Source: Streptomyces hyaluromycini
GTDB taxonomy: Bacteria > Actinomycetota > Actinomycetes > Streptomycetales > Streptomycetaceae
Assembly (NCBI RefSeq): GCF_002217755.1
Contig: NZ_BCFL01000018.1
Location: 930,001 to 994,000 of the forward strand
Direction of reading: 5' to 3'
Length of the DNA stretch: 64,000 nucleotides
The notes under the pieces were generated by a model that was not told where the DNA came from, did no database searches, and saw only the letters and a program-made list of their open reading frames with translations. Every line of letters starts with the position of its first letter. The first letter of the stretch is position 1. Of this stretch, positions 1-64,000 are shown piece after piece. A program made the translations under genes and the position numbers.

Positions 1-1
1 C

Positions 2-136
2 GCCGACGTGCTGCGCGAGGAAGCCGTCCGGCGGCTGGAAGGGCTGCGCCGACAACTCGGCGAGAACAACGGCATCACCCGCTTCGCGCTGGAGGAACGG
101 CGGGTGTACCGGAACCTGGAGCCGCCGGCCGCGTGA
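2..136 (+). CDS. C-terminal end of an unrecognised protein (partial)
   Basis: An open frame runs from the left edge of the window to a TGA at 134-136 and encodes 44 residues ending in EPPAA. It is rich in Arg, Glu and Leu and looks helical (for example REEAVRRLEGLRRQLGEN), with GC-rich third positions as in a real Streptomyces gene. The start lies outside the window. I do not recognise the family, so no function is assigned. Confidence 0.6.
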   Translation, partial: ADVLREEAVRRLEGLRRQLGENNGITRFALEERRVYRNLEPPAA

Positions 137-1842: not shown

Positions 1843-3639
1843 TCAGGCGGCCGTTCCGGCGGCCAGCCAGAGCGCGACGTCGCGCGGGTCGGCGGCCGTG
1901 CCGGCCATGCGCAGTTCGCGGTGCACCGCGCGGGGCAGTTCGGGGCGGTGCAGCAGCGGGCGGGCGGCGAGGGCGAGGACGAGGCCGGTCCATGCCTCGG
2001 GGTCCTCGGGGTCGCCCGCCAGCAGGCGGGCGTAGGCGTCGAAGGCGTCGGGGTCCCCGGCGACCAGGGCGCGGTCGGCGGCGGACGGCACGGGCCAGTC
2101 GCCGGTGTCCGGCACGCCGAGGCGCTGCCGGACCAGTCCGTTGCGGGCCTGCGACCAGGGCGCGGCGAGGTCGGGGACGACGGTGGACGCGGCGACGTGC
2201 GCGTCCACCGCGGCACCGGCGGCGAAGGCCCGGGCCAGGGCGCGGACGTCGTCCGGGGCGGGGGCCAGGTGCCGGACCCGCCAGCCGGTGCGGTGGTCGG
2301 TGGCCGCGAATTCGGCCAGGGCGACGATGTCCGGCCGGATCCGGTCGTCCGACCACCAGGCGGGCAGCCGTGCGGCCATGCCCCGCAGGAAGCGGCGGCC
2401 GTGCGCGGTCAGGGCGGGATCGGCCCCGAGGGTGTGAACGGCCTCCTGGGTCTGCCGCCTGCGCAGGGCGAACTCGAATTCCACCCGGGGCCGTTCGTCC
2501 TGCGGCGCGTGGTCCAGGTACCTGCTCCAGAAGTCGGTGATGCCCAGGAAGGCGTAGGCGCCCTGGAGCAGCCCCCGCAGCGGACGCGGGTCGTTGCGCC
2601 AGGGGGCGTAGTGCCGCTCGGTCCCGCTGTCCTGCTCCAGCGTCAGCAGATGGATCAGGGCGCCCAGTTTGGTGTGCTGGAACTCGTGGACCAACGTGAC
2701 CGCGAAAGTGGCCGGGTCCGGCGGCAGCGAGGAGAGCAGACCGCCGAAGGCGTCGCCGGAGGAGGCGCTCGACACCGTCCAGGGCCGTGTCGGCCGGACC
2801 TCCGCGACCGTACGCAGTCCCTCCGCCATGGCGGCGGCCGTGCTCGGATCGCTGGCCACGAGCAGGTCCAGGGCCAGACCGAACCGTTCCTGCCAGCGGG
2901 CGAGCTCGTCCTTGCCGAGGCGCTGCGGAGGCAGCGGTTCGCTCAGTTCCCGGTAGGGGTCGATGTCGTCCAGCCAGACGGTCACCGGCCGGCCCGCCGC
3001 GTCGGCCCGCAGCGTGCGCAGTCCCTGCCAGCCGGGGGCGTCGCCGTCGGGAGTCCCGAGCGGCTCGGGCGGCCCCACGCGGGCACCGTGCGGGTCGACC
3101 TTCAGCCGCCCGGCCTCCACCACCGCATCCGCCGTCCCCCACCGCGGGCGGTCCGGCAGGCGGGCCAGCCCGAGGGTGGGGAACATCGCGGCTCCGTCCC
3201 GCAACGGCACCGTGGTCCGCAATGGCAGTCCCGTGCGCAGCGCGGCGACGGCGCACACCGCGTACAGATGGCCGAGGTCGGTCCACAAAGGTCCGTCGCC
3301 CCAGGCTGTGAGCCTGAGCCGGCGCAGGCTGTGCCCCAGCCAGACGCCGATCTGCGGGTGCAGCAAGAGCTCCCCGAAGTCCTCCGGGGCGCGCTGCTGA
3401 GCCACCGTCAGGGTGTCCCACGCGGTGTCCACGGGCGGCAGCGGGCCCAGTGCACCGGGGGTTGCGGCGATGGCGTCGAGCAGGGCCCTCAGCAGCAGGA
3501 GCCGCCTGCTGTACTCGGTGCTCCGCAGGAAACGAACCGTCTCCGGACCTCCCCGGCCCGCGGCCAGGTCGTCCAGGTGAGCCAAGGGGATGACATGGTG
3601 AGCGGCGTGGGCGCGAGCCGAGCGACCGTCCTGCTGCAC
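1843..3639 (-). CDS. Stand-alone HExxH-domain protein, FxsB-associated type (candidate peptide-modifying enzyme)
   Basis: A 598-residue protein of the HExxH family associated with FxSxx-COOH peptides. The metal-binding motif is intact as VHEFQHTK at about residues 318-322. In FxsB proteins a related domain follows a radical SAM/SPASM half, but this protein has no CxxxCxxC motif and no radical SAM part. Recent work on radical-SAM-fused HExxH domains reported alpha-ketoglutarate-dependent beta-hydroxylation of peptides, so a hydroxylase or peptidase role is possible here (inference). GTG at 3639 is chosen because GGAAGGAG lies 4 bases before it; an overlapping ATG at 3641 is out of frame. The FxsA-like peptide gene ends 22 bases upstream, consistent with an enzyme-substrate pair in one transcript. 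Confidence 0.75.
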   Translation of the reverse strand: MQQDGRSARAHAAHHVIPLAHLDDLAAGRGGPETVRFLRSTEYSRRLLLLRALLDAIAATPGALGPLPPVDTAWDTLTVAQQRAPEDFGELLLHPQIGVWLGHSLRRLRLTAWGDGPLWTDLGHLYAVCAVAALRTGLPLRTTVPLRDGAAMFPTLGLARLPDRPRWGTADAVVEAGRLKVDPHGARVGPPEPLGTPDGDAPGWQGLRTLRADAAGRPVTVWLDDIDPYRELSEPLPPQRLGKDELARWQERFGLALDLLVASDPSTAAAMAEGLRTVAEVRPTRPWTVSSASSGDAFGGLLSSLPPDPATFAVTLVHEFQHTKLGALIHLLTLEQDSGTERHYAPWRNDPRPLRGLLQGAYAFLGITDFWSRYLDHAPQDERPRVEFEFALRRRQTQEAVHTLGADPALTAHGRRFLRGMAARLPAWWSDDRIRPDIVALAEFAATDHRTGWRVRHLAPAPDDVRALARAFAAGAAVDAHVAASTVVPDLAAPWSQARNGLVRQRLGVPDTGDWPVPSAADRALVAGDPDAFDAYARLLAGDPEDPEAWTGLVLALAARPLLHRPELPRAVHRELRMAGTAADPRDVALWLAAGTAA

Positions 3640-3661
3640 ATGGCTCCTTCCGCGGGGTTCG

Positions 3662-3844
3662 TCAGTCGACCCGCCTGGTTGGGTTCTCACCGCCCGCGAA
3701 GTTGACCCTCGGCTGTTCGACCTGGCGCAGCAACCGGTCCAGTGCGCGCGCATGGACGTCCGGGCTCTGCGACCTGAGGCCGGAGAGGGCGATCTCACTG
3801 AGATCGGGCAGTTCGGACTTCACAGATTCCATGGGCGTGTTCAT
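3662..3844 (-). CDS. Short FxsA-like peptide (candidate modified-peptide precursor)
   Basis: A 60-residue protein. ATG 3844 is preceded at 8 bases by GGGGG; an ATG at 3892 would add 16 residues with no ribosome site. The body (LPDLSEIALSGL then ALDRLLRQVEQP) matches the pattern of FxSxx-COOH proteins: an acidic leader with I/L-S-G/D, then a helical L-R-x-L-L segment before the tail. The expected C-terminal FxSxx is absent; the protein ends in FAGGENPTRRVD. It sits 73 bases after the caspase gene and 22 bases before the HExxH gene, all on the minus strand. Precursor status is inferred from size, resemblance and position. Confidence 0.65.
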   Translation of the reverse strand: MNTPMESVKSELPDLSEIALSGLRSQSPDVHARALDRLLRQVEQPRVNFAGGENPTRRVD

Positions 3845-3917: not shown

Positions 3918-5027
3918 TCAGGCCGGTGAGCCTCCTGATCCGGGGTTCAGCCGGCGGGCCGCCCAGTCCTTCAGCTCGCGCTGCGCCAGCGAGCCCGGGT
4001 CGAGTACGCCGAGCGCCTCGACGAGGGCGGCCAGGCCGCCCGGGTGCAGACGGCAGGTGCGGACGATGCTGATGATGTCGGCCCTGGCCGCTCCCAGCCG
4101 GGGGATGGCACCGGCCAGGTCGACGGGCAGCATGCCGATGACAAGCTGGCGCTGGTCGCGGTCGGCCAGGGCGGGCCATCCGGCCAGCAGTGCGACGAGT
4201 TCGGACAGGGCCGCGTCCGGCACCGGTTCCTCCCGGCGCCGGGCGGCGGGGAAGTCGTAGTGGCGTACGTCGCCGGCCCCGGACCGGTACCAGAGCGAGG
4301 TGGGCCGCTGTCCCCCCTCGGTGAACCGTCCGATCACGGTGTCCGCCAGTGCGCCCATGTCCGGTGGCCAGTTCTCGTCGTCCGAGGCCTCCAGCTCGGC
4401 CAGCACGGCCCGGGAGAACGCCCCGGTCCGCAGCACGGGGTCGTTGGCCGCTCGCTGCCCCGGCCCGGAGGCCAGCAGCACGAACTGCTCCCGGCCCGGC
4501 AACCGGTCGCCGCGGGACGGGAGTTCGGCGGGCAGTGAGCGGACGAAACCCAGGTCCTCGACGAAGGTCTGGCAGGAGTCCACCAGCCAGATCTGGCGCC
4601 GGAAGCCGGGCAGCGCGTCGGTGGTGAGGGTGGTCAGCCAGGCGTCCAGGTCGAGGTTGCGCTTGTCGTCGGCCGTGGCGTCGGCGTAGAAGAGCCTGCG
4701 GTGTCCCTGCGGGTCGGTGACCCCGTGGCCGCCCCAGACGACGAACAGCAGATCGCCCTCCAGCGCGGGCAGCCGGCGCGTCAGCACCTCCTGCACGGCC
4801 TCCCGCCCGGCGGGCCCGGCGGGCACGTCCACCTCGGGTCCGCCCGTCCCCGGCAGGGCGCCCAGCAGCAGGGAGATGTGGGCCGCGGGCACGCCGCGGC
4901 CGCGCAGCCAGGCGGTGAAGCGGCGGGCGTCGGCGGCCGGGCCCGGCAGGTCCCAGGACGGGCCGGCGGCGTAGCGTTCCACGCCGACGACGACGGCGTG
5001 GGTCCGGTCCGGGCGGACGGCGGTCAC
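3918..5027 (-). CDS. Caspase-like peptidase with C-terminal effector-associated domain
   Basis: A 369-residue caspase-family (C14) protein. The catalytic His is in VVWGGHGV (H101) and the Cys in LVDSCQT (C152), each following a hydrophobic strand as in caspases and metacaspases. Residues about 270-355 form a helical effector-associated domain (ADIISIVRTC, then PGGLAALVEAL) that resembles the N-terminus of the VMAP-like protein at 13470-14999. In published analyses of bacterial conflict systems, caspases with such domains are effectors switched on by VMAP/NTPase complexes; that role is inferred here. The ATG overlaps the stop of the upstream hydrolase by 4 bases, so the two are probably translationally coupled. 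No signal peptide; cytoplasmic. Confidence 0.88.
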   Translation of the reverse strand: MTAVRPDRTHAVVVGVERYAAGPSWDLPGPAADARRFTAWLRGRGVPAAHISLLLGALPGTGGPEVDVPAGPAGREAVQEVLTRRLPALEGDLLFVVWGGHGVTDPQGHRRLFYADATADDKRNLDLDAWLTTLTTDALPGFRRQIWLVDSCQTFVEDLGFVRSLPAELPSRGDRLPGREQFVLLASGPGQRAANDPVLRTGAFSRAVLAELEASDDENWPPDMGALADTVIGRFTEGGQRPTSLWYRSGAGDVRHYDFPAARRREEPVPDAALSELVALLAGWPALADRDQRQLVIGMLPVDLAGAIPRLGAARADIISIVRTCRLHPGGLAALVEALGVLDPGSLAQRELKDWAARRLNPGSGGSPA

Positions 5028-6250
5028 GGCAGCTCCCCGGCCAGCACGCGGTACAGCTCGGGGTTGCTCCAGTAGGCGCTGTGGGAGAGCGGGAAGGGCT
5101 GGCGGCTGTCGAGGGCGATGTCCGCGACCCGGCCGGGGAAGACGCCGGCGCCGAGGTAGCTGAGCAGGTCCCGCCGGTCGTAGACGTTCAGCCAGCGCGG
5201 CACGTGGGCGGGCAGCGGGCTGCCGGGCTCCAGGCTGGGCAGGGCCCCCAGTTCGTACAGGAACGGGGCCTGCGAGCCGACGGTCACCAGCAGCGCGACC
5301 TGCGGCAGCGGCCGCAGCACCAGCAGGTCCAGCGCGGCTATGCCGCCGAGGCTGTGGGCGAGCAGCACGACCGGCGGCTCCGCCGCGAGCACCGCCTGCG
5401 CGACGGCCTCGCGGATCGGGCCGCCGCGGGCCAGGTAGAGCAGCACGTCCCCGGCGGCCGGATGGGCCGCGTCGGTGAGCGCCGAACGCCGTTTGACCGC
5501 CTGCGCGGAGGCCAGGCCGAGGGCCAGCCGGCCCGTCAGCCGTTTGATCCGCCGGGTCACCGGGCCGCGGTGGGTGCCGGGTTCGTCCCCGGTGCCGGAG
5601 GGCCCGGGGAGCAGGGCGGCGATCCGGGCGACCGCCTCGTCGCGGGCGGTGCCGTCGAGGGCCGGGGCCGGTCCCTGCCGCCCGGTCCGGCGGCGCACCG
5701 CCTCGGCCGCGAAGGCCCGGGCCAGTTCGGTGGTTCCGGCACCCTCGACGGGGGCGCGGAGGAAGCGGCGGCAGTCGTCGGTGGTCAGTACGGCGGCCAC
5801 GGCGGCGGCGAAGTCCTCCGCGATGCCCGCCGCGTCCAGCAGCCGGCGCAGCCGGTCGTCCGCGGTGAGCGCCGGGGCCGCCGCTGCGAGGGCCTCGCCC
5901 GGCGGCCGGGCGCCGGGGGCCGACTCGGTTCTCCCCGTGGTCTCCGCGGTGAGCAGGCGCAGTTCGAGCAGCGGGTCCAGATAAAGAAGCCCCCAGAATT
6001 CGACGTCCTCGTCGAAGGCCTCCTCCGGTGCGCCGGGGGCGCCCGCGTGCGGTACTTCACGCCCGGTCCCGTACCCCGGCACGGAAATACCGTTCGAATG
6101 CAGTACCGATCCGGCAGTTCCTCCCCAATAGCAGGAAGATATGCGGACTTCGGGCCGTAACGGCCGCAGTCCTTCCCGTACGACTTCCACAGTTCCGCTG
6201 AATCCCGGCTCGCGCACGCCGGTGCCGTGTACGAATAAGACCGTCGTCAC
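5024..6250 (-). CDS. Alpha/beta hydrolase of the conflict locus
   Basis: A 408-residue protein starting VTTVLFVHGTGVREPG, the first strand and oxyanion HG of an alpha/beta hydrolase. The nucleophile Ser lies in LLAHSLGGIAAL. The C-terminal part has a likely His in PLSHSAYW. GTG 6250 is preferred because a GGGGGG block lies about 7 bases upstream; an ATG at 6277 would add nine residues. The middle (about 110-260) is Ala/Arg-rich and poorly conserved. It overlaps the caspase gene by 4 bases. An esterase or lipase effector, or a partner of the caspase, is plausible; the substrate cannot be told. Confidence 0.78.
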   Translation of the reverse strand: MTTVLFVHGTGVREPGFSGTVEVVREGLRPLRPEVRISSCYWGGTAGSVLHSNGISVPGYGTGREVPHAGAPGAPEEAFDEDVEFWGLLYLDPLLELRLLTAETTGRTESAPGARPPGEALAAAAPALTADDRLRRLLDAAGIAEDFAAAVAAVLTTDDCRRFLRAPVEGAGTTELARAFAAEAVRRRTGRQGPAPALDGTARDEAVARIAALLPGPSGTGDEPGTHRGPVTRRIKRLTGRLALGLASAQAVKRRSALTDAAHPAAGDVLLYLARGGPIREAVAQAVLAAEPPVVLLAHSLGGIAALDLLVLRPLPQVALLVTVGSQAPFLYELGALPSLEPGSPLPAHVPRWLNVYDRRDLLSYLGAGVFPGRVADIALDSRQPFPLSHSAYWSNPELYRVLAGELP

Positions 6251-6376
6251 CGTCGACCCCCCGCCCCAGAACGGCATATTCCAAGCGCCCGCAACAATAG
6301 GTCAGTTGCCCCCTCACCGGCTACACTGCGTGTGTACAACGCCACAGGGTGCGGCACTTGCCGAAGGGGGATGCCG

Positions 6377-7717
6377 GTGAGCATCGACTCCACTGTCTCT
6401 CATGTCGTCGCAGCTCTCGCGCTGGTGATCACAGCGTCCTCGGCCCTGGGAGCGGCCGCCCGCAAGCTGCGCCAGCCTTCCGTCATCGGGCAGTTATTCG
6501 CCGGCATCGCCCTCGGCCCCAGCCTGCTGGGCCTGGCCCCGGGAGGAGCGTACGAAACCCTCTTCCCGGACCAGATCAAGCCAATTCTCACTTCCCTGGC
6601 ACAAGTCGCACTGGTGCTCTTCCTGTTCGCGGTCGGTTATGAACTCGACCTCGGCCAGCTGCGTAATCGCGGCGCGGTGACCGCGGTCTCGCTGAGCGGG
6701 TTCGCGATTCCCATGCTTATCGGAGCCGGCATCGTTCTGCTGTATTCCGGAGGTTTCCGCTCCGCGAACGGCGGGCATCCGATCGACGCGACATTCACCC
6801 TCTATATGGCGGTCGCCCTGTCCATCACGGCGGTTCCCGTGCTGGCGAGCATCATCCGGGACCAGGGACTGGCCGGCACCCGCCCCGCCACGATCGCGAT
6901 GGCCGCCGCCGGTGTCATCGACGCGCTGAGCTGGCCGGTGCTGGCCGTCGCCCTGATCGGCGGCGAGGACGGCTCGCTGCGGGCCTGGAGCCTCAAGGTG
7001 GCGCTGCTGGCGGCGTACGTGCTGGTGATGTTCGTCGTCGTACGGCCCGTGCTGAAGTGGTGGATGCACCGGCCCGGCGCCCTGATGACCAATCACGTCC
7101 CCGTCGCCGCCGCGCTGGCGCTGGCCTCGGCCTGGGCCACCAGCGCGCTCGGACTGCATGTGATCTTCGGTGCGCTGCTGGCCGGCATCATCATGCCCCG
7201 CCAGTCCGACGGCGCCCCGGACAGCCAGGTGCTGCGTCCGCTCCAGGAGACCGGCGGCCTGCTGCTGCCGGTGTTCTTCACGATCTCCGGGATGTCGGTC
7301 CAGCTGAACGGACTGCACGCCTCCGACCTGGTGCTGCTGCTGGTGATATGCGCCGCCGCGATGGTGGGCAAGGTGACCGCCGGCGCCCTGTCGGCCCGGG
7401 GCGGTGCCCGGCTGCCCTGGCGTGACTCCCTGCTGATCGGTGTGCTGCTCAACACCCGGGGGCTCACCGAACTCATCGTGCTCAACGTGGGGTTGCAGGC
7501 CGGAGTGATCGGCCCCCGGCTGTATGCGCTGCTGGTCGTGATGGCGCTCCTCACCACGGCGGCCACCGGGCCGCTGATCGGCCCGCTGTACCGTCCCGCC
7601 GACGCGTCGCCGGCCGGGCCCGTCGGCACCGGCCCCGACGACGAACAGACGCCCGAGCAGACGCCGGGCCCCGGACAGGCCCCCGCCGTGGACGCCGAGC
7701 CGACGCCACAGCCGTAG
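6377..7717 (+). CDS. CPA2-type cation:proton antiporter
   Basis: A 446-residue membrane protein with about 12 hydrophobic segments. Family motifs include RKLRQPSVIGQLFAGIALGP near the N-terminus and NTRGLTELIVLN near residue 365, typical of Na+/K+:H+ exchangers of the CPA2 family. The GTG at 6377 has AAGGGGG six bases upstream and is preferred over the ATG at 6371. The last about 50 residues are a Pro/Gly/Glu-rich cytoplasmic tail. It lies inside the minus-strand conflict locus but on the opposite strand, between the hydrolase and the NB-ARC/TPR gene. A functional link, such as ion flux as an output, is possible but unproved. Confidence 0.88.
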   Translation: MSIDSTVSHVVAALALVITASSALGAAARKLRQPSVIGQLFAGIALGPSLLGLAPGGAYETLFPDQIKPILTSLAQVALVLFLFAVGYELDLGQLRNRGAVTAVSLSGFAIPMLIGAGIVLLYSGGFRSANGGHPIDATFTLYMAVALSITAVPVLASIIRDQGLAGTRPATIAMAAAGVIDALSWPVLAVALIGGEDGSLRAWSLKVALLAAYVLVMFVVVRPVLKWWMHRPGALMTNHVPVAAALALASAWATSALGLHVIFGALLAGIIMPRQSDGAPDSQVLRPLQETGGLLLPVFFTISGMSVQLNGLHASDLVLLLVICAAAMVGKVTAGALSARGGARLPWRDSLLIGVLLNTRGLTELIVLNVGLQAGVIGPRLYALLVVMALLTTAATGPLIGPLYRPADASPAGPVGTGPDDEQTPEQTPGPGQAPAVDAEPTPQP

Positions 7718-7801: not shown

Positions 7802-10800
7802 CTAGAACGGCACCGGGGCGATGTCCACCTCGGCCCGCTGGCTGCTCGCGGCGGCGGTGGTCGCCGGGTGGCTCTCGCCCAGCGTCCGGCGGAACCGGGT
7901 CAGGGTGTCGGTGTGCAGCACCGTGGCCTCGTCCACACGGTCCAGCGCGCGCAGGTCCAGAGCCACGTTGTTGGCGCAGGCCAGGGTGGTCGGGTGGTCA
8001 GGGCCGAGGTCGCGGCTGAGGATCTCCAGGTTCTGCCGGTCCAGTTCCAGGGCTTCCGTGTGGCGCTCCAGCGCGCTGTGGTGGTTGGCCATGCCGAGGG
8101 CCGTGGTCACGGTGAGGATGTGCTCGTCCCCCAGCGACGCGTGCATGCCGCGCAACGCCGCGTCCAGGTGTTCCTCGGCGGCTTCGAGACGGCCCAGATG
8201 GCGCAGGGTGATGGCCACGTTCGTACGGGCCGACAAGGTGTAGGGATGGGTGGCGCCGAGGGTGGCCGTGTAGCGCTCGACGGTCGCCTCGCCCAGTTCC
8301 ACGGAACGCGTCAGCTGGCCGTCCTGCCGGAGGTCGACGACCAGGTTGGCCGCACAGGCGATGGCGTCCGGGTGGTCGGCGCCGTAACGGCTCTCGAACT
8401 TCGACAGCGCCAGCTCACCGAGTTGCAGCGCGCCGTCGTGGTCTCCGGCGCGCCGGCGGCATACCGAGAGCACACGGGCGCAGCCGATGCTGGCGGGGTT
8501 GTCCTCGCCGTAGTTCGCGACGTAGCGGGCGTAGACGTCCTCCTGGTGGACGACTGCTGCGAGGTAGTCGCCGGTCTCGCGGATGTCGAGGGAGAGCGCG
8601 CTCAGGGTGTTCAGGGTGTTGAGGTGGTTCTCGCCGAGTGCGAGGGCGCGCTGCTGGGCCGTCTCCGTGTCGCGTTCGCGCGCCTCCTGGTAGAGGCCCA
8701 TCAGGCGCAGAGCGACGCCCAGGTTGTGGGCCGCGCGCAGGGTGGACGGGTCGTCGTCGCCGAAGGCCCGCAGCGAGCGCGTGAAGACCGACCGGCTGAT
8801 CTCCAGCGCCTGGGCCAGCTCGGCCCTCAGCCACAGCCCGCTGGTCAGCTGGATGAGGGCGTCCAGGGTGCCCTCGTCGTCCTCGCCCGCGATCCGGATG
8901 TACGTGTCCGCGGTGCGCTGCATCATCTCGGCGGCTTCCTCGTACTCGCCGATCCGGCGCAGCAGGAAGGCCAGCCACTTCGCCATCTCCAGGGTCTGCT
9001 GGTCCTCGGCGCCGAACTTCCGGGTCCATACGTCCATCGCCTCGCGGGCCATGGAGACCGCACCGTCGTGGTCGCCCCAGATGAAGAGGAACTCCACCAC
9101 GTCCCGGATCAGGCCGCGCACCCACGGCGAGTCGCACTCCACGGCCCGCGAGACCACGATGTGCGGCAGCAGTTGCTGATAGCGCGGCCACAGTTCGCGC
9201 GAGCCGGGGCTGTTGGGGTTGGCGTCGGCGAGCAGCAGGTGTGCGCCGTGCCGCATGTCCGCCTGCTGCTGCGGGGACATGCGGTTGACCAGCACCGCCT
9301 GGACCAGGCGGTGCAGCTGGATGGTGTCGTGCCGGTGCTCGATGCGGGCCAGGGCGTAGACGTTGATCTCCCGGATGGCCCGGCCGAGCCGGATCGGGTG
9401 GCGCAGGGCTTCGTCGATCTCGGGGGCGATGGTGCTCCGCGAGTTGTTGAAGAGGGTCCGCGAGATCGGCTCGGGGGCGAAGAAGGAACAGACCTGGAGG
9501 AGCTGGAGCGCCGCGGGGTTGCGCTGTTCGAGCTGGCGCAGCGAGACGTCCCAGGCGGCGGCCACCGACATGGGGTAGTCCGGCGACGGGACGAGTTCGA
9601 GCATCAGCTCGGCGATCTTCTCCCGGATCAGCCCGAGGTACTCGTCGACGGCCATGCCGGTGACGGCCTGCCAGGCCGCGGCCTGTTCGATGGCGAGGGG
9701 CAGGTCGCCCAGCTCCTGGGCGAGCAGGTCGGCGTCAGCGTCGCTCAGGTCACGGGCCCGGCGGCGCAGCAGCGCCTTGCTCTCCTCACGGGTGAAGACG
9801 TCCACGGAGAGGGTCCTGGCCACCCGGTCCCACTCCTGGTTCCGGGAGGTGATGAGGATCTTTCCGGTGCCGCCGGTCGGGAAGTAGGGGCGTACGGCCT
9901 CGACGTTCTCGGCGTTGTCGAACACCAGGAGCCAGCGGTCGTACGGCTCGCCCCGGCGCAGGGCCTCGCGCACCGCCGGGACCGCGCGGTTGGCCTCCGC
10001 GCCCACGTTCAGGCCGAGCCGGTGGGCGAGTTCGGTGAGCGCGGTCAGGATCATCGTCGGCTGTTCGGAAGGGATCCACCAGATCACGTCGTACTCGGCG
10101 GTGTGCCGGTACACGTACTCGATGGCGATCTGGGATTTCCCGACACCGCCCATGCCGTGCAGGGTGTGCGGCAGCACCGCCGAGGTGTCGCCCGTCAGCA
10201 ACTGCTCGTGCACCTGTGCGAGGAGTTCCTCCCGGCCGGTGAAATTGGGGTTGTTCGGCGGCACGTTGCCCCAGACCACCGGTACGGAGGCACGCTGCGG
10301 GACCTGCCGTGACTGCGGTGCGGCCGGCCCCGGGACCGTCCTGCCGGGTGCCGAGAGGCCGGCGCCCGGCTGCCCGTCGGCGCTCGGAACGGGAATCTCC
10401 CGCACTGGAGTCCCGCTCGCGGATCCTTCCGCTGCGTGCTGGTACTCACTGGCAGTGGTGTCGGTCATGTCCGGGCCGCCCAAGTCTGAATTTACAACAT
10501 TTTTATTACGGATATCGTGGCTTATTTGCCGCGAATTCTCATTGATCGACGCACCCGACGGCGCCCCTTCCAGAGCCGCGCTGACCCGGCGGGCGCGCAG
10601 CAGATAGGGCCCCGACAGGGCGCGCAGCACGGCCAGCTCGACACGCAGGAACGGCAGGCTCTCCGCCGTCACTTGTGGAACCGGCTCCTCCTCCGGGGCG
10701 AGCAGCGCACCGGGCAGGCCGCGGGCCGCCTCGAACCGGTCGCCGTAGAACTCGGACACCGAACTCACCACCCGGGCCGTGTCCGCGCGCATCGCGCCCG

Positions 10801-12355
10801 CCAGCAGCGCCTCACGCGCGCCGTCGACGAACTCCAGCGGCACGGGGGCGGCGGCGCTGCGCGCCGCGGCCGGCGCCGGCTGCTCCAGCAGACCGCTCAG
10901 AAAGAGCTCGGCCAGATGGGCCGGCTGTGCCTCGGGCACCAGCCGGCGCTGTACGTCCCGCACCAGGCGGGGTTCCAGGATCGCGGCGGCCAGATGGGTG
11001 GCCAGCCGGAAGGCGGTGGGGGTGGCATGGCTGCGGAAGCGCCGGATGCGCTCCTGCACCGAGGGCGCCGGGATGACGACCGGCGGCTCGTCGACGTCCT
11101 CCTCGGGCACGTCGGGCGCGCCCAGTAACAGCACCGGGGCCTCGAACCGGTCGGGCTCCGTACCGGCCACCAGGGCGGCCCAGCGGCCCAGCCACCGGGC
11201 GTCCAGCTCCAGCATCGGGACCGCCGCCGTCCAGCTCGCGGGCGGCGGGTCGAACGGGTCGCGCCACTCGGCCGGGAAGTCCACGGCCAGTTCGGTGGTG
11301 CGGGCCCCCGCGCGGGGGCTGCGCAGCCGCGCCTGCCGGGGCACCAGCGCGGTGCGGTGCCAGTCCCGCTGGGACAGCAGATGCACCACCGCCACCGGTC
11401 CGGCCGCCGCCCACAGCTCCAGCGCCTGCCGGCCGGCCGGGGTCCGCCACAGCGGTCCCAGGCCGTCGGTCAGGACCAGGACGATCCGGCGGCCGGTACG
11501 GTCCACCAGCTCGCCGGGGACACCGAGGACGTCGTGCTCCGGGTACGGCCCGCGCAGCACCGCCTCCGGCCCCCGCGGGGTCTCCCGCAGGCCGAGCCGG
11601 CGCACCCGCACGTCCCGGAAGGCGCCCAGCCGCTCCGCCACGGCGGTGAACTCGGCGACCGTCTGCTCCCAGATGACCATGGTCGCGTGGTCGTCCACCA
11701 CCAGCACCAGATCGAAGCGGCGCTCGTCCGCCGACCGGGTGTAGGGCACCCACAGGCCGTCCTCGGCGGCGCGTTCGGCGGTGGTCTCCTCGTCCAGTTC
11801 GACCTCGAACGCCGAGGGCACCAGCTGCTTCAGCGGCCGCAGCGCACGGGTGATGCCCGCCGCGTCCCGCAGATCCGGCACGGCCCCGACCGGTCCGGCC
11901 GCCTCGGCCGTCCCGGTCCGCAGCCGCCGGGCCGCCCGCTCCCGTGCGGTTCCGTTCCCGGGACCCTCCGGCCCGGCGGGGCGCAACGGCAGGATCAGCA
12001 CCTCGGCCAGGTCACCGGGCGGCTCCCGCACCGCGCCGTCGGCGGCCTCGCCCGTCGTTCCGTCACCGGTCTCCGCCGTCGTACCGCCGACGGCACCGTT
12101 CGTCGCACCACCGGCGGAACCGCCCGTACCGCCCGTCGTGCTCCCGCCGGTACCGCCCGTACCGCCCGTACCGCCGGACGTCGGCGGCCCGCCGGGGGGT
12201 TCGGGCAGGCCGGAGAGCTCCGACAGCGCGGTCGGCCGGGGCTGCGGCGGGCGGTCCGACGCCGGCAGCCGTGCCGCCAGCGTCTGGTACGCGTGCAGCC
12301 AGAGGCCCTCCGCCACTTCGAAGGCCTCCGGACAGGCACGCGAGTCCTCGTCCAT
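7802..12355 (-). CDS. vWA-like (SAV2336 type) / NB-ARC / TPR protein, FxsT-like
   Basis: A 1517-residue multidomain protein. Residues 55-115 are a Gly/Thr low-complexity linker. Residues about 200-420 match the SAV2336-type vWA-like domain (LVLVVDDHATMVIWEQ, then VLVLTDGLGPLW). A polar linker at about 615-650 is encoded by unusually AT-rich DNA. The NB-ARC has its P-loop GMGGVGKS near residue 732 and Walker B LLVFDNAEN near 808. About ten TPR-like repeats follow from about 1090 to the end, with recurring LG..HP.TL. The layout fits the FxSxx-COOH-system tetratricopeptide proteins and the vWA/STAND member of ternary VMAP-MoxR-vWA systems. Its ATG shares the A of the MoxR stop (TGATG), so it is translationally coupled. 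It probably serves as a sensor/scaffold (inference). Confidence 0.85.
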   Translation of the reverse strand: MDEDSRACPEAFEVAEGLWLHAYQTLAARLPASDRPPQPRPTALSELSGLPEPPGGPPTSGGTGGTGGTGGSTTGGTGGSAGGATNGAVGGTTAETGDGTTGEAADGAVREPPGDLAEVLILPLRPAGPEGPGNGTARERAARRLRTGTAEAAGPVGAVPDLRDAAGITRALRPLKQLVPSAFEVELDEETTAERAAEDGLWVPYTRSADERRFDLVLVVDDHATMVIWEQTVAEFTAVAERLGAFRDVRVRRLGLRETPRGPEAVLRGPYPEHDVLGVPGELVDRTGRRIVLVLTDGLGPLWRTPAGRQALELWAAAGPVAVVHLLSQRDWHRTALVPRQARLRSPRAGARTTELAVDFPAEWRDPFDPPPASWTAAVPMLELDARWLGRWAALVAGTEPDRFEAPVLLLGAPDVPEEDVDEPPVVIPAPSVQERIRRFRSHATPTAFRLATHLAAAILEPRLVRDVQRRLVPEAQPAHLAELFLSGLLEQPAPAAARSAAAPVPLEFVDGAREALLAGAMRADTARVVSSVSEFYGDRFEAARGLPGALLAPEEEPVPQVTAESLPFLRVELAVLRALSGPYLLRARRVSAALEGAPSGASINENSRQISHDIRNKNVVNSDLGGPDMTDTTASEYQHAAEGSASGTPVREIPVPSADGQPGAGLSAPGRTVPGPAAPQSRQVPQRASVPVVWGNVPPNNPNFTGREELLAQVHEQLLTGDTSAVLPHTLHGMGGVGKSQIAIEYVYRHTAEYDVIWWIPSEQPTMILTALTELAHRLGLNVGAEANRAVPAVREALRRGEPYDRWLLVFDNAENVEAVRPYFPTGGTGKILITSRNQEWDRVARTLSVDVFTREESKALLRRRARDLSDADADLLAQELGDLPLAIEQAAAWQAVTGMAVDEYLGLIREKIAELMLELVPSPDYPMSVAAAWDVSLRQLEQRNPAALQLLQVCSFFAPEPISRTLFNNSRSTIAPEIDEALRHPIRLGRAIREINVYALARIEHRHDTIQLHRLVQAVLVNRMSPQQQADMRHGAHLLLADANPNSPGSRELWPRYQQLLPHIVVSRAVECDSPWVRGLIRDVVEFLFIWGDHDGAVSMAREAMDVWTRKFGAEDQQTLEMAKWLAFLLRRIGEYEEAAEMMQRTADTYIRIAGEDDEGTLDALIQLTSGLWLRAELAQALEISRSVFTRSLRAFGDDDPSTLRAAHNLGVALRLMGLYQEARERDTETAQQRALALGENHLNTLNTLSALSLDIRETGDYLAAVVHQEDVYARYVANYGEDNPASIGCARVLSVCRRRAGDHDGALQLGELALSKFESRYGADHPDAIACAANLVVDLRQDGQLTRSVELGEATVERYTATLGATHPYTLSARTNVAITLRHLGRLEAAEEHLDAALRGMHASLGDEHILTVTTALGMANHHSALERHTEALELDRQNLEILSRDLGPDHPTTLACANNVALDLRALDRVDEATVLHTDTLTRFRRTLGESHPATTAAASSQRAEVDIAPVPF

Positions 12356-13473
12356 CAGGGCGCCCCCGACAACTCACGCCAGAGCGCCTCCAGCAGCTCG
12401 CCCCAGGACTCTTCGTCCTCCCGGACCCCGGCCGTCCGCAGGAACACGGCGTTGAGCAACTGGTCGGTGGCCAGCCCGCCGCTCTGCCGGCTGCGTTCCA
12501 CGAACGCCCGGATCATCTCGTCGTGCCGGCCCTCCTGGTCCCGGAAGTGCGCGGCGATCATGGCGGCCAGCTGGTCCTCGCGGGGCGGGGAGACGTCCAG
12601 CCGGACGCAGCGCCGCAGGAAGGCGGGCGGGAACTGCCGTTCGCCGTTGCTGGTGATGACGACGAACGGGAAGGCCCGGCACCGGACCCGGCCGTCCGTC
12701 ACCGTGACCGTGGTGTCCGGGTCGTCGGTGAACACCCGCGCCGAGCTCTCGTGATGGCGGGCGCGGACCAGTTCCGGGATGTCGTAGGAGCCGTTCTCCA
12801 GCACATGGAGGAGGTCGCTGGGCAGGTCGATGTCGCTCTTGTCCAGCTCGTCGATGAGCAGGACGCGGGGCAGTTCGTACGGGAGCAGGGCGGTGCCCAG
12901 CGGGCCGAGCCGCACGAAGTCCCCGATCCGTGCCCCGGTGCCGCCCTCCGGTGCCGCCGGCGGGGTTCCGTCCGCCGCCTCCGGGGTGCCGTCGCCCAAC
13001 GGGGCGGCCGGGCCCCGTCCGAGGGACGCCTGGGCGCGGCCGATGGCGTCGTACTCGTACAGTCCGGCGCGCAGGGTGCTGCGCGAGGTGATCCCCCAGT
13101 GCAGCACCCGGCCCAGGCCCAGTTCGCGCGCGACCAGATAGGCCAGCGTGGACTTCCCGATGCCGGGGCGGCCGGTCACCAGCAGCGGCCTGCGCAGCAG
13201 CAGAGCCGTGTTGATCATGTCGATGTCGTGCGGGTCCTGCCGGGAGGTGGTGCGGCCCACGCTGCCGAGCCGGCGGTCGGTCTCCGCGCTCTCGGCCGGT
13301 ACGGGCGGCAGCACCGGGCCGCCGTCGAAGGCCCGCCAGCCGGGCGGCGGGGGCAGCACGTCGGCGAGACGGATGTCGGGCAGCGGCTGCCCGGTGCCGC
13401 GGTAGATCCACCAACTGCGGCTGACCGGACCGCCGTTGCGGCTGCCGTCCACCGGGTGCTGGGCGCGGCTCAT
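12355..13473 (-). CDS. MoxR-type AAA+ ATPase
   Basis: A 372-residue AAA+ protein. Walker A is GRPGIGKS at residues 101-108; Walker B is RVLLIDELDKSDIDLPSDLL, the DELDK form typical of MoxR ATPases; sensor 1 is FVVITSNGER. It starts at ATG 13473, overlapping the VMAP-like gene's stop by 4 bases, and its own stop overlaps the next start. MoxR ATPases work as chaperone-like motors with vWA proteins; here the partners would be the two neighbours. An N-terminal segment (SWWIYRGTGQ) precedes the AAA core and is seen in MoxR proteins of such clusters. Cytoplasmic. Confidence 0.9.
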   Translation of the reverse strand: MSRAQHPVDGSRNGGPVSRSWWIYRGTGQPLPDIRLADVLPPPPGWRAFDGGPVLPPVPAESAETDRRLGSVGRTTSRQDPHDIDMINTALLLRRPLLVTGRPGIGKSTLAYLVARELGLGRVLHWGITSRSTLRAGLYEYDAIGRAQASLGRGPAAPLGDGTPEAADGTPPAAPEGGTGARIGDFVRLGPLGTALLPYELPRVLLIDELDKSDIDLPSDLLHVLENGSYDIPELVRARHHESSARVFTDDPDTTVTVTDGRVRCRAFPFVVITSNGERQFPPAFLRRCVRLDVSPPREDQLAAMIAAHFRDQEGRHDEMIRAFVERSRQSGGLATDQLLNAVFLRTAGVREDEESWGELLEALWRELSGAP

Positions 13474-14999
13474 GAGGTCCCCTCGTCGTTGTGTCCGCCG
13501 CGCACGCTCCCGGGCTCCGACGCCGGGTGTTCGGACCAGTCCACCATCCGGTTCGGGTTGTCGAGGAGCACCGCGAGGTGACGTCCTGAGTGCGCATCGC
13601 GTTGCCCCGCGGCGGCGGTGGCCGCTTCGGTGCGCAACTGCCGGACGCGTTCCGGCAGTTCGGCGGCCGTTCCCTTCAGCAGCTTGTCGACCCGTTTCCT
13701 GAAGTCGCCCGGGGGTGTGGGCCGGCGGTCCCAGACGGCCAGCGGCACGCCGGCCCGCAGCGCGGCTTCGAGCGCTTCCTGGCGGCCCTCGGGCCCGGTC
13801 AGCGGAGGCGCGTTGAGCGCGACCGACACCAGCCGCTCGTCGGCGGCGAGGGTGCTGTTCCACCGCACGGGGTCGTGGCCGCGCTCGCCCGTCGTGTCCC
13901 AGTGGCACAGGATCCGCGGGCCGGCCGTCATCTGCTGCCAGCGGTTGCGCCAGCGCCGGTGGTACCGCCGGGCCCGCATCCGCTCCAGGCTGCGCAGCGC
14001 CACCGGGAAGTCCAGGCACAGCGCGGTGGCGGAGGACGAGTGCGAGGCCATCGGCAGCCATTCCACGGGGTGGTTCAGCAGCTGCAGCGGCAGCACGAAC
14101 TCGAGTACCGGCCTGCCGGGGTGCTCGCCCCAGTCCTCCTCGACGCTCTCGACCAACTGCTCCACCGCGGCCTCGACTTCGCCCAAGGCCACGATCTGGT
14201 CCTCTCCCCGCTCCGGCCGCCACGAGCCCGGACGCCGCTGCCGCCAGTGGGACAGCAGATACTCGTCCGGGCTCATCCCGTGCTTGCTCAACTGGACAAC
14301 GAGACAGGCGGGAGCCGGTTCCGCCACCCCCCGAGTGATCTGCGAGCGGAGGGTTTCAAGAGGCTCCACCAGGTCAAGCCGGGTGCCCTGCTCGTCGTTC
14401 CAGCTGCGCAGGCCGTCGACGAGCTGCCGGTCGGCACCGGACGCCGCACCTGCCGCGATCGCGTGCTCCACCAGGACCAGCACGGGAAGCAGGCCGTCGG
14501 GGCGGGCGTTGGCGTCGGCCAGGAAGTCGAAGGCCTCCTGGAGGGTGGCGACCGGGCGGGCCGGGAGCGGCAGGTCACCGGCCGCCGCGTACAGCAGGCC
14601 CTGCGGGTCGGGATGCGGTAAGCGGCTCAACAGCGAGCGGGCTCTGCGGAATTCGGCTTCCGGCAGGACCGCCAGAACCGGTGAGGCGGAGACGAGCTCG
14701 ACGATCCTCAGTACCGGAATCGAGCCGGGGTCGTACTCCTGAAGGGTGTCCACCAGTACGGAAAGTCCGGAGGGCTTCCGCCAGCAGGCTTGGAAGATCT
14801 CCAGTATGTCGTGCCGCTTCCGGCTGTGTCGCCGGACGTTGGCCAACTCGGGTAACCGGCCCGCCAGCATGTCGATCAAGAGATCGCGCCCTCCCGGTGC
14901 ATCGAGTCCCGACACCGCGCACATCTGCTCTATCAGCTCATGCTCGAATCCCGCTGCATGGCCGCCGTTTCTCCCACTCAACAAGCTTCCCCCCGTCAC
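13470..14999 (-). CDS. VMAP-like protein with N-terminal effector-associated domain
   Basis: A 509-residue protein. The first about 90 residues form an effector-associated domain (HDILEIFQACWRKPSGLSVL) that resembles the C-terminal domain of the caspase at 3918-5027. The remainder resembles the VMAP C-terminal domain: VEWLPM, then CLDFPVALRSLERM, and AVLLDNPNRM near the end. GTG 14999 is chosen because it starts just before the conserved domain and has GAGGGG about 11 bases upstream; starts further up would add unconserved residues. In ternary conflict systems the VMAP protein links the NTPase/vWA pair to an effector. It is the first gene of the VMAP-MoxR-vWA/NB-ARC operon. Confidence 0.78.
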   Translation of the reverse strand: MTGGSLLSGRNGGHAAGFEHELIEQMCAVSGLDAPGGRDLLIDMLAGRLPELANVRRHSRKRHDILEIFQACWRKPSGLSVLVDTLQEYDPGSIPVLRIVELVSASPVLAVLPEAEFRRARSLLSRLPHPDPQGLLYAAAGDLPLPARPVATLQEAFDFLADANARPDGLLPVLVLVEHAIAAGAASGADRQLVDGLRSWNDEQGTRLDLVEPLETLRSQITRGVAEPAPACLVVQLSKHGMSPDEYLLSHWRQRRPGSWRPERGEDQIVALGEVEAAVEQLVESVEEDWGEHPGRPVLEFVLPLQLLNHPVEWLPMASHSSSATALCLDFPVALRSLERMRARRYHRRWRNRWQQMTAGPRILCHWDTTGERGHDPVRWNSTLAADERLVSVALNAPPLTGPEGRQEALEAALRAGVPLAVWDRRPTPPGDFRKRVDKLLKGTAAELPERVRQLRTEAATAAAGQRDAHSGRHLAVLLDNPNRMVDWSEHPASEPGSVRGGHNDEGTS

Positions 15000-15119
15000 G
15001 ACTCCGGCGCCCCTCAACTCCCTCCCGTTACAGGGCAGTCCGGGTGCCGCAGCCCTGCGTCCAGGGTATGGCCCAGGCCTTACACGTGGCCACCCCGGAA
15101 CGGCAATCACAGGCATCCG

Positions 15120-27144: not shown

Positions 27145-27265
27145 ACCGTCCCACCGAGCGAGTTACCCCAAGACGCCGGCTCTGTCCGTGCTTTCCGTGT
27201 TTTGCCCCCGGCGGGTCGTTGGTCGCTGTACCTCTGGCAGCACGCGTCGAGGCAAGGGGGGACGC

Positions 27266-27733
27266 ATGCAACGCGCTGGGCGTTGGGTCGTCGCGGTGTG
27301 CGTGGGGGCCGGTTCGTTCGTGGTCTGTCTGTGGGCGGCGCGGGCCGCGTCGTTCGGCTTCCTGCCCCGTGCGGAGGCCGACCGGTGGGTGGTGGCCACG
27401 GCGTTCGCGACGACGGTGGCCGCGCTGGTCGGGACGGCGGCCGGCTGGTGGGCGGGGGCGGGGCAGGAGGAACCCCCGGACGGCCGCCCCCCGGAAGCCG
27501 CGGACGGGGCAGGGGCAGGCCGGCGGCCGGCGGTGCGGCAGAGCGCCACGGCGTCGGACGACGCCCAGGTCACGCAGGTCGCGGGAGACCGGCGCCCCGG
27601 CTCCGGCGCCTCCGCGGAACGCCCCGGCAGGCTGGCCCAGCGCGCCAGGGCGGCGGGCCGGGCCCGGATCACCCAGGTCGGCGGGAACGACGGGACCGAC
27701 GGGACGGCAGGTCCCGGGCATGGTGACCGGTAG
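27266..27733 (+). CDS. Small two-TM protein with RHIM/BASS-like motifs (candidate membrane effector)
   Basis: A 155-residue protein. ATG 27266 has AGGGGGG five bases upstream. Two membrane helices, about 7-26 and 41-64, form a hairpin. A disordered tail (70-155) follows, with two short matching motifs: QVTQVAGD at 101-108 and RITQVGGN at 134-141. The next gene begins with HVIQITGTGN. The shared Q-[VI]-x-G core resembles RHIM and the bacterial BASS amyloid-signalling motifs that couple NLR sensors to effectors. A membrane-disrupting effector is inferred. It overlaps the NB-ARC gene by 14 bases. Confidence 0.7.
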   Translation: MQRAGRWVVAVCVGAGSFVVCLWAARAASFGFLPRAEADRWVVATAFATTVAALVGTAAGWWAGAGQEEPPDGRPPEAADGAGAGRRPAVRQSATASDDAQVTQVAGDRRPGSGASAERPGRLAQRARAAGRARITQVGGNDGTDGTAGPGHGDR

Positions 27734-30521
27734 GAGCAGGGCCGGGCGGGCGCAGGCCGCCGCGGCATCCGGGCACGGCCACGTCATCCAGATCACCGGC
27801 ACCGGCAACCACGTCTGCGCGTCGGGCGTCGGGGACCCGTCGCCGGTGCTGCAGCTCCCGGCGGAGCCGGTGCATCTGGCCGGCCGGGAGAAGGAGGCCG
27901 AGGCCGTACTCGCGCTGCTCGCCCCCGCGTCCCGCGGCCGGCCCGACGCCGCCGTCTCGTTGCTCTCCGGGCTCCCCGGCATCGGCAAGACCGCCCTGGC
28001 CCTCCATGTCGCCCACCGGGCCGTGGCCCGGGGCTGGTTTCCCGGCGGCGCGGTCTTCCTGCACCTGCGGGGCTACGATCCGGCCGGGCCGGTCGGCGCC
28101 GACGAGGCGGTCGGCGCGCTGGCGCGGGCGCTGTGCGTGGACGACGCGAGGACACCGGACGAGCAGACGGGGCTCTGCCAGGCCGCGCTGAACCGGCTCG
28201 CGGACGAGGGCAGGGCGGTCCTGCTGATCGCCGACGACGCGGCCGACGCCGCACAGATCGAACGCCTCGTCCCGGCCCGCTCCGCACACCGGCTGCTGGT
28301 GACCTCCCGTCACCTGCTCACCAGTCCCGCCTTCCAGCCCCGGCTGATCGGCCTGGACGAGCTGACGCCGCAGGGCGCCGCCGACCTGGTCGCCGAGGCG
28401 CTGCGGCACGCCCGGCCCGACGATCCGCGTCCGGCGCGGGAGGCCGGCGCGCTCGCCGAACTCGCCGGACTCTGCGGGCACCATCCGCTCGCCCTGCAGA
28501 TCGCCGCGTGCCTGCTCACCACCGACGCGGGCCGGTCCGTCGCCGCGCTCGCCGCCGACCTGGCCGACGCCCGGACCCGCCTCGACGTGCTGTGCTTCGA
28601 GGACGGCGGGCACACGACGGCGGTCCAGGCGGCGTTCCACCTGTCGTACCAGCGGTTGTCGCCGCCCCACCGCCAGCTGTTCCGGCAACTCGCCCTCAGT
28701 CCGGGCCCGGACATCGGCACGGACGCCGCGGCGGCACTCGCGGGACGGTCCCGGGGCCGGACCCGGGACTCGCTGGCCGCGCTCGCCCGGGCCGGGCTGC
28801 TGGCGGAGCAACCGCAGAGCTCGGGACGCTGGCGGATGCACGACCTGCTCCGTGTCTACGCGGCCGCGCTGGTCGAGAGGGACAGCCCGAAGTGGCGGAA
28901 CGCGGCCTTCACGCGGCTGCTGACGCACTGTGGGCAGCTCGCGCGGGCGGCGGACGCGCATCGGCACGCCCACGACGACGAACCGTTGCCGGGAGAGTTC
29001 CCGGACCGGGCGCACGCCATGCGCTGGCTGGAGGCGGAACGGGCGAACCTGGTGGCGCTCATCGCCCGGGCCGCGGCCACCGGACATGCGCGCGCGGTGC
29101 TGGAACTGGAGGAGCACATACGTCTGTTCCTGCTGGAGCGGAGCCGGCACGCCGCCGACGCCGTGACCGCCGCGCAGCTCGCCGTCGCCTGCGCCCGCGC
29201 GATCGGCCACACCTGCTGCGAGGCCACTGCCCTGGGGCACCTCAGCCAGGCCCTCGGCGACTCGGGACGGCTCCCCGAGGCGGTGGCGGCCGCCACCGGG
29301 AGCCTGGACATCGCCCGGGCCCGCGGCGACCGGGAGCGGCAGATCACTGCACTGCTCAACCTCGGCGGCGCGCTCCGCCAGGCCGAGCGGTTCGAGGAGG
29401 CCACCGAGGCCCATACCGAGAGTCTGGCCCTCTGCGAGGAACTCGGCGACCGGGGCCGGATCGGCACGGCGCTCGTCGGTCTTGCCGACACGCTGTGCGA
29501 CCGCGACGAGTACGAGGAGGCCGCCGGCCTGTTCACCGAGGCCGTACGGCACTTCGCCAAGACCGGCGACTGGCATGCCGAGGGCCTCAACCTCATTCGT
29601 CTCGGGGACACGTTGTTCGCGATGAAGAGGACCGAGGACGCCGTCGACGCGCACCGCCGCGCCCTCGCCGTCTACCAGGAGCGCGGCGACGAACACCACC
29701 AGGCCATCGCCATGCAGCACCTGTGGGCGGTGAGCGAGATGAGCCCGGAGGAGGCGGTGGACAACTACGAGAAGGTCGTGGCCATCTGCCACAAGGTGTG
29801 CGACCGCCCGCTGGAGGCCCTGGCTCTGAAGGCCCTGGCCGGCAGGCTCCAGCGGCTCGGCCGGTACGACGAGGCCGTCACGGCCCACCGCAGGGCGGCG
29901 GCCATCCACGAGGAGCGCGACGAGGAGAGCCAGCTGATCCGCGTGCTGCACGACCTGGGCACCGCCCTGTGCGCGGCCGGCCGTCTCGCCGAGGCCGTCG
30001 AGGTGCACGAACGGGAGATCGCGCTGTTCCGGACCCGCGGTGACCGGCACGAGGAGGCCGAGGCGCTGGAACGCCTCGCCGCGGCGCTGCGGCGCGGGCG
30101 CCGGCGATCGCAGGCGACGGAAGCCTCCGCGGCGGCGATCGGCCTCTACCGCGAACTGGAGGACACGTGGTGCGAGCGGAGGACACTGGGCGACGTGGGC
30201 CTGCCGGTCCGGGACACGCCACGGGCCGACCGGGTCATGGCCGATTACCACTGGGTCCTGGCCGGCCTGCCGGAGGACGACGCGCCCGGCCGGCAGAGCC
30301 GGATCCTGTTGGCCCTCATCTTCGCGCAGCGGCGGGCGTGGCGCGTCATCGGCATGTTCTGGTCGGTGGCGAGTCTGGCCAGGATCGTATGGCGGAACGA
30401 CCGGGCCGCGGAGCAGTTCGTCGAGGACTCCCACCGGCTGACGAAGGCCTGGCTCCGCCTCGTCCGCCCCGACGCCGCCCTCGCCGCCCTGCGGAACCGG
30501 TACCGCCGGCCGACCGCCTGA
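27720..30521 (+). CDS. NB-ARC / TPR protein with N-terminal amyloid-like motif (bacterial NLR)
   Basis: A 933-residue STAND ATPase. Residues 21-32 (HVIQITGTGNHV) match the motifs of the preceding small membrane protein. The NB-ARC P-loop GLPGIGKT is at 84-91, Walker B AVLLIADDA near 168, and GLCGHHPLAL marks the later helical part. TPR repeats run from about 480 to 830 (EEATEAHTESLALCEELGD). Such proteins bind a ligand with the TPRs, oligomerise through NB-ARC and expose an N-terminal motif. ATG 27720 lies inside the upstream gene and the longer upstream frame is a shadow. Interaction with the upstream protein is inferred. Confidence 0.85.
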   Translation: MVTGRSRAGRAQAAAASGHGHVIQITGTGNHVCASGVGDPSPVLQLPAEPVHLAGREKEAEAVLALLAPASRGRPDAAVSLLSGLPGIGKTALALHVAHRAVARGWFPGGAVFLHLRGYDPAGPVGADEAVGALARALCVDDARTPDEQTGLCQAALNRLADEGRAVLLIADDAADAAQIERLVPARSAHRLLVTSRHLLTSPAFQPRLIGLDELTPQGAADLVAEALRHARPDDPRPAREAGALAELAGLCGHHPLALQIAACLLTTDAGRSVAALAADLADARTRLDVLCFEDGGHTTAVQAAFHLSYQRLSPPHRQLFRQLALSPGPDIGTDAAAALAGRSRGRTRDSLAALARAGLLAEQPQSSGRWRMHDLLRVYAAALVERDSPKWRNAAFTRLLTHCGQLARAADAHRHAHDDEPLPGEFPDRAHAMRWLEAERANLVALIARAAATGHARAVLELEEHIRLFLLERSRHAADAVTAAQLAVACARAIGHTCCEATALGHLSQALGDSGRLPEAVAAATGSLDIARARGDRERQITALLNLGGALRQAERFEEATEAHTESLALCEELGDRGRIGTALVGLADTLCDRDEYEEAAGLFTEAVRHFAKTGDWHAEGLNLIRLGDTLFAMKRTEDAVDAHRRALAVYQERGDEHHQAIAMQHLWAVSEMSPEEAVDNYEKVVAICHKVCDRPLEALALKALAGRLQRLGRYDEAVTAHRRAAAIHEERDEESQLIRVLHDLGTALCAAGRLAEAVEVHEREIALFRTRGDRHEEAEALERLAAALRRGRRRSQATEASAAAIGLYRELEDTWCERRTLGDVGLPVRDTPRADRVMADYHWVLAGLPEDDAPGRQSRILLALIFAQRRAWRVIGMFWSVASLARIVWRNDRAAEQFVEDSHRLTKAWLRLVRPDAALAALRNRYRRPTA

Positions 30522-60560: not shown

Positions 60561-64000
<3,440 letters not shown>

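Follow-up and report, generated by a model that had tools for sequence, protein, structure and literature searches.

The closest described counterpart of the locus analysed here is the 'RxD type' peptide-processing module of the actinobacterial vWA-MoxR-VMAP ternary conflict systems (Kaur et al. 2020; PMC7159879). That work distinguished FxSxx, RxD, acidic and FtsH peptide types; in the RxD type, AP-ATPase and vWA protein form one fused polypeptide, and the enzyme encoded next to the peptide was proposed to be a metallopeptidase that frees a C-terminal peptide acting as a toxin or signal (PMC7159879). In the literature searched, outside of which most subscription journals lie, we found no experimental test of an RxD-type enzyme.

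The second body of relevant knowledge concerns enzymes with alpha-KG-HExxH domains, the characterised members of which are Fe/alpha-KG oxygenases (PMC13060819, PMC12636437, PMC12707348). PesO forms 3-hydroxyproline at the residue preceding R(V/T)DN (PMC13060819). Hydroxylation of Gln and cleavage ahead of ARMD are catalysed by PflC and PosC; the oxidation is leader-dependent, whereas hydrolysis, seen with PflC in vitro, affects only leaderless peptide, and under anaerobic conditions, PflC failed to hydrolyse full-length PflA (PMC12636437). Cleavage by PosC occurs at Ala and partly at Gly, and the enzyme can do without any one of the R, M and D of ARMD (PMC12636437), so that R-x-D need not be a motif recognised by the active site. 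BipH is a further member of the family (PMC12707348). Finally, the FxSxx-COOH system combines a TIGR04268 peptide, a radical SAM enzyme (FxsB/FxsBH) and the TPR protein FxsT (NF040586).

The window, that is, the whole stretch of 64,000 nucleotides of Streptomyces hyaluromycini DNA that was analysed, contains a small gene next to a gene for an HExxH protein, together with the following neighbours:

1843-3639, minus strand: stand-alone HExxH enzyme of the predicted alpha-KG-HExxH type, with a GTG start at 3639 and the stop at 1843
3662-3844, minus strand: 60-residue precursor peptide, read from the ORF, MNTPMESVKSELPDLSEIALSGLRSQSPDVHARALDRLLRQVEQPRVNFAGGENPTRRVD
3918-5027, minus strand: caspase-like peptidase with a C-terminal EAD2 domain; the His101/Cys152 dyad is present in the sequence
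5024-6277, minus strand: alpha/beta hydrolase (weak match to Pfam Abhydrolase_6)
6332-7717, plus strand: CPA2-type cation:proton antiporter, divergent from the hydrolase-caspase-peptide-enzyme operon
7802-12355, minus strand: SAV_2336 N-terminal (vWA-type) region, NB-ARC domain and TPRs in one ORF of 1517 codons
12355-13470, minus strand, start not fixed, within the ORF 12355-14223: MoxR-type AAA ATPase with the P-loop GRPGIGKS and a MadB-like match
13470-15116, minus strand: VMAP protein with EAD2, VMAP-M0 and VMAP-C (Pfam PF19956, PF19916, PF20028)

In the order of minus-strand transcription, the genes encode VMAP, the MoxR-type ATPase, the vWA-type-NB-ARC-TPR protein, the hydrolase, the caspase, the peptide and the HExxH enzyme, with the plus-strand antiporter gene lying between the vWA-NB-ARC-TPR gene and the group of the last four. 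The caspase gene directly precedes that of the peptide and overlaps the 3' end of the hydrolase gene by 4 bp, and the peptide stop codon is separated from the start of the downstream enzyme gene by about 22 bp; given this gap and overlap, a single predicted transcript for the four genes is plausible. The 1517-aa protein scores 868 bits against NF040586 (cut-off 300) and 360 bits against NF041121, matches NB-ARC and TPR in Pfam, and carries the P-loop GMGGVGKS at residue 734; its N-terminal region matches SAV_2336, and Pfam gave no score for a vWA domain proper. The VMAP-C and VMAP-M0 matches in the window exceed the Pfam cut-off. Radical SAM enzymes had no match anywhere in the 64 kb, as the initial annotation had proposed from the open reading frames, and its assignment of the pair to a conflict system is corroborated by the VMAP, MoxR and vWA-type-NB-ARC-TPR genes.

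Thus, the pair is an RxD-type module of a vWA-MoxR-VMAP system, with the remainder of the system in the window. As in the published module (PMC7159879), a small, diverging peptide ending in R-x-D is encoded beside a zincin-like gene, an AP-ATPase (NB-ARC) with TPRs and the vWA protein are joined in one polypeptide, VMAP and MoxR genes are present and a radical SAM gene is absent. Two features set the locus apart from the 2020 description: the enzyme, then considered a metallopeptidase, is here assigned to the alpha-KG-HExxH oxygenase family by sequence and predicted fold, and the subset of loci represented by the window also has an alpha/beta hydrolase gene paired with the caspase gene, and an antiporter gene in divergent orientation.

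Several other elements of the window were observed. PADLOC reported only a caspase match and weak AAA/TPR matches. A further AAA/STAND-like protein with TPRs is encoded at 27219-30521 (plus strand), and an ORF at 61316-63268 (minus strand) matches Cas5 (PF09704), suggestive of CRISPR type I genes at the end of the window. At the left edge, a short stretch matching the C-terminus of the FxSxx-system TPR proteins (G000:C17:929924-930130) reaches into window positions 1-130; it may be a relic or the last part of a further copy.

Peptide and enzyme form a genuine, widely conserved pair. Relatives of the enzyme were detected by protein search in 286 of the 395 genomes of the family, a number that includes weaker matches in long open frames or matches covering only the part shared with radical SAM fusions, and that is not a count of stand-alone pairs because many of the weaker matches are of these kinds. 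An alignment-based scan yielded 77 loci from Streptomyces, Actinoplanes, Amycolatopsis, Frankia, Micromonospora, Saccharopolyspora and other genera. The HExxH motif is retained in all 89 enzyme ORFs of these loci, and a peptide of the family is encoded directly upstream, on the same strand, of 79 of the 89 enzymes, with a median gap of 19 bp, so that the pairing proposed initially withstood the check in relatives. Among the remaining ten enzymes, two (L049, L050) do possess a peptide that was overlooked because of how the start was estimated; for five others, a peptide lies about 2-3.5 kb downstream of the point where the enzyme starts. Enzyme and peptide distances are correlated (Mantel r 0.85), as partly expected from the shared descent of linked genes. 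The peptide of the window behaves as a protein-coding gene because, in comparisons with eight relatives, dN/dS is 0.31-0.47, indicative of purifying selection.

Some loci contain two peptide-enzyme pairs (L083, L085, L087, L090, L104, L105, L109, L115, L118 and L068, L069, L073, L080, L100), which are divergent in several Streptomyces loci and tandem in several Amycolatopsis loci; in the divergent pairs, the tails of the two peptides differ. In the phage collection, no relative of the HExxH enzyme was found, and the plasmids contained just four, all distant.

The identity of the enzyme is the point at which our analysis departs from the published description. The window protein scores 166.4 bits against TIGR04267 (alpha-KG-HExxH peptide beta-hydroxylase; cut-off 40), and its HExxH motif, HEFQH at 2688-2674, is intact, in agreement with the initial reading of a stand-alone, intact HExxH enzyme. 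Downstream lies a conserved PWRxDxR motif; across 22 relatives, H319, E320, H323, P347, W348, R349, D351 and R353 (P0001 numbering) are invariant, and the HExxHxK and PWRxDxRP stretches also occur in SjiH and ChlH. An AlphaFold2 model of the enzyme (pLDDT 90) was compared with solved structures. The best match was SjiH (22ob; Z 31.8, rmsd 2.7, 404 aligned residues), followed by ChlH (8s5f; Z 23.6, rmsd 3.2, 314 aligned residues), and the first row below these two had a Z of 8.6. The profile match and the predicted fold support the assignment of the window enzyme to the alpha-KG-HExxH oxygenases rather than merely to the zincins. It would then share one enzyme family with ChlH, PflC/PosC, PesO and BipH/BpmH, the fold of ChlH being backed by the structure comparison. 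The genes of these enzymes sit in natural-product clusters alongside MNIO or radical SAM partners, in contrast to the window pair, which is located in a conflict system where we detected no other modifying enzyme.

In view of the TIGR04267 score and the structural similarity of the model to SjiH and ChlH, the enzyme appears likelier to act by hydroxylation, perhaps with oxidative cleavage as well, than by simple proteolysis. The reading that we favour, and hold to be somewhat on the probable side, is that the pair supplies the peptide modification within a VMAP-type conflict system, in which the HExxH oxygenase would hydroxylate the peptide tail and the product would partner the NB-ARC-TPR protein. 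For the chemistry, its target residue and the part played in switching the system, we infer the following. The 60-residue precursor would be made in the cytosol and recognised by the HExxH protein via the N-terminal leader S-x-L-x-D-L-x-x-x-x-L-x-x-L-R and the segment after it. Acting as an Fe(II)/alpha-ketoglutarate oxygenase, the HExxH protein would hydroxylate the tail, FAGGENPTRRVD, at the C-terminus of the peptide; the GG-x-x-P-x-x-R-x-D stretch is the most likely region and Pro55 the foremost candidate. The tail might also be trimmed oxidatively. Once modified, the peptide would probably remain intracellular and serve the linked NB-ARC-TPR protein of the vWA-MoxR-VMAP system as ligand or partner. 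The mass shift of +16 Da and the cleavage that had initially been anticipated for the peptide would both be sensible predictions by analogy with the characterised relatives (PMC12636437, PMC13060819).

The tail of the window peptide (residues 49-60, ending in NPTRRVD) belongs to the R-x-D class and aligns with the GGSGPPGRAD class as GG-x-x-P-x-x-R-x-D. The peptide had been described as simply lacking an FxSxx tail; its terminus instead represents a recurrent R-x-D/E class that was named in 2020 (PMC7159879). A C-terminal R.[DE] is present in 56 of 90 peptides, compared with 36 of 7088 other ORFs of like size in the same loci, the former count being biased upward as the collecting profile was seeded with peptides carrying R-x-D/E tails; the same endings are found in unselected small ORFs upstream of the first 30 loci. 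Tail subclasses track enzyme clades and include GPPGRAD/RVD, TASGS..AKRVD, GGYNPQRDE, DFNPAERFD and some Cys-ending forms. In L088, L092, L098, L108, L116, L117, L084, L089 and L095, the peptides mostly end in Cys or Cys-x-x, not in R-x-D, and constitute a further tail class. With tail types that vary to this extent, including Cys-ending and Pro-less classes, no single residue is singled out as the target.

PesO and PflC/PosC act just before the R-x-D segment of the substrate C-terminus, and the window tail is likewise of the R-x-D type. Oxidative cleavage of the backbone, by which the terminal R-x-D segment would be removed and an amidated peptide left, as by PflC/PosC at ARMD, thus has a direct precedent on an R-x-D-containing C-terminus (PMC12636437). 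Many relatives also have Gly or Ala before RxD (PPGRAD, GARAE), the residues at which PosC cuts. In the window peptide, however, Thr56 and Arg57, neither Ala nor Gly, precede RVD, and the strong conservation of an RxD that is cut off would have to be explained by recognition alone. We consider cleavage as the main outcome rather unlikely, although it is the strongest of the alternatives to hydroxylation of a retained tail.

The published proposal that the HExxH protein is a metallopeptidase which cuts the precursor and releases the C-terminal R-x-D peptide (Kaur et al. 2020; PMC7159879) is, in our estimate, unlikely. It agrees with the presence of the HExxH motif, with a weak structural likeness to aminopeptidase N, at Z values of about 6 that fall inside the range of unrelated matches, and with the hydrolysis of leaderless substrates by PflC in vitro (PMC12636437). 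However, by both sequence and fold, the nearest families are alpha-KG-HExxH domains, well above any peptidase. Moreover, the characterised members of the family act as oxygenases on full-length substrates, and anaerobic PflC left full-length PflA unhydrolysed.

The leader connects this family with the FxSxx precursors, such that the initial label 'FxsA-like' holds for the family but not for the window peptide taken by itself. A profile built from 66 family peptides matches FxSxx precursors of related Streptomyces, the best at E 4e-10; the matched region covers the leader and stops where the tail begins. Among the same 66 peptides, 25 have a weak TIGR04268 match. The window peptide alone, the leader of which spans about residues 8-45, has no NCBIfam match, TIGR04268 included; a search of its own genome with TIGR04268 gave nothing above the cut-off; and a profile-profile comparison of the family with the FxSxx set, a small one in which two precursor subfamilies are mixed, was not significant (P 0.012). 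At the level of sequence profiles, the peptide family has its leader in common with the FxSxx precursors, whereas tail and enzyme differ. The leader of PflA, unlike that of the window family, is nitrile-hydratase-like.

The likeness to the FxSxx-COOH system extends to the NB-ARC-TPR protein, which is homologous to FxsT, and to a related HExxH domain. Unlike in that system, the window tail is R-x-D rather than FxSxx, no radical SAM enzyme (FxsB/FxsBH) is found in the window, nor is there a match to the radical SAM core in the 77 related loci, and the HExxH protein is stand-alone and intact. Two other FxSxx loci in the same genome (L012 and L013) each carry a radical SAM gene, and in the L012 protein, the fused HExxH-type domain has lost the motif, with LVRGFRLG replacing LVHEFQHTKLG.

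Across the 77 loci, homologues of the window proteins were counted as follows: TPR in 71, NB-ARC in 70, the vWA-type part in 58, VMAP in 54, MoxR in 38, caspase in 14 and alpha/beta hydrolase in 11, all of these being lower bounds since several contigs end inside the flank and only window proteins served as queries. The steadiest neighbour of the enzyme is accordingly the NB-ARC-TPR protein (70/77). A caspase does lie just upstream of the peptide in the window, as the initial annotation stressed, but the emphasis was misplaced, and the caspase was dropped as a key partner because a similar one is present in only 14 loci. The antiporter retains its position in nine of the 77 loci (L044-L050, L103, L107) and, confined to the window-type subset, may act there as an accessory or as a membrane effector.

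In three relatives, NB-ARC, TPRs and an intact HExxH domain are fused in a single ORF, the three frames measuring 1520, 1774 and 1577 residues:

L127:2913-7475, plus strand: NB-ARC-TPR-HExxH fusion (also L171)
L128:530-5854, plus strand: NB-ARC-TPR-HExxH fusion (also L172)
L169, about 6.4-11.2 kb, minus strand: NB-ARC-TPR-HExxH fusion

These fusions point to the enzyme and the NB-ARC-TPR protein acting jointly, a link that derives from gene neighbourhood and fusion only. No family peptide was detected near any of the three, so the enzyme may have another substrate there. This observation is compatible with an enzyme that mainly modifies the NB-ARC-TPR or another protein of the system, with the peptide as regulator or pseudosubstrate. 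Such a role seems to us quite improbable given the peptide directly upstream of 79 of the 89 enzymes and its layout of leader and variable tail, which is typical of RiPP precursors, the kind of peptide on which the related enzymes act. Least probable of all is an exported RiPP antibiotic or signal, for which the RiPP-like precursor and a CPA2 antiporter, the sole membrane protein recognised in the operon region, could be adduced, but neither a peptide exporter nor a leader protease turned up among the window genes examined, and the conserved partners in the 77 loci are conflict-system NTPases.

A further, distinctly tentative proposal can be made. The hydroxylase, dependent on O2 and alpha-ketoglutarate, might set the state of a small intracellular peptide that serves as ligand, guard or licence for the NB-ARC-TPR (NLR-like) receptor, and loss or change of the hydroxylated peptide might trigger the vWA-MoxR-VMAP response. 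FxSxx with radical SAM and RxD with HExxH would then be two interchangeable chemistries that operate on one leader and serve the same type of receptor.

The pair is real and conserved, yet it lies within a module that has already been described. What is useful is the proposed correction of the class to which the enzyme belongs; leader exchange and receptor fusions are additions in its support. The peptide-processing arm was previously known from sequence alone, with the enzyme taken for a protease; its placement among the oxygenases would bring known chemistry to the question of what the peptide becomes. From the leader held in common with FxSxx precursors and from the NB-ARC-TPR fusions, the modified peptide would seem to belong to the receptor module, and such a peptide could reveal how a bacterial NLR-like protein is switched.
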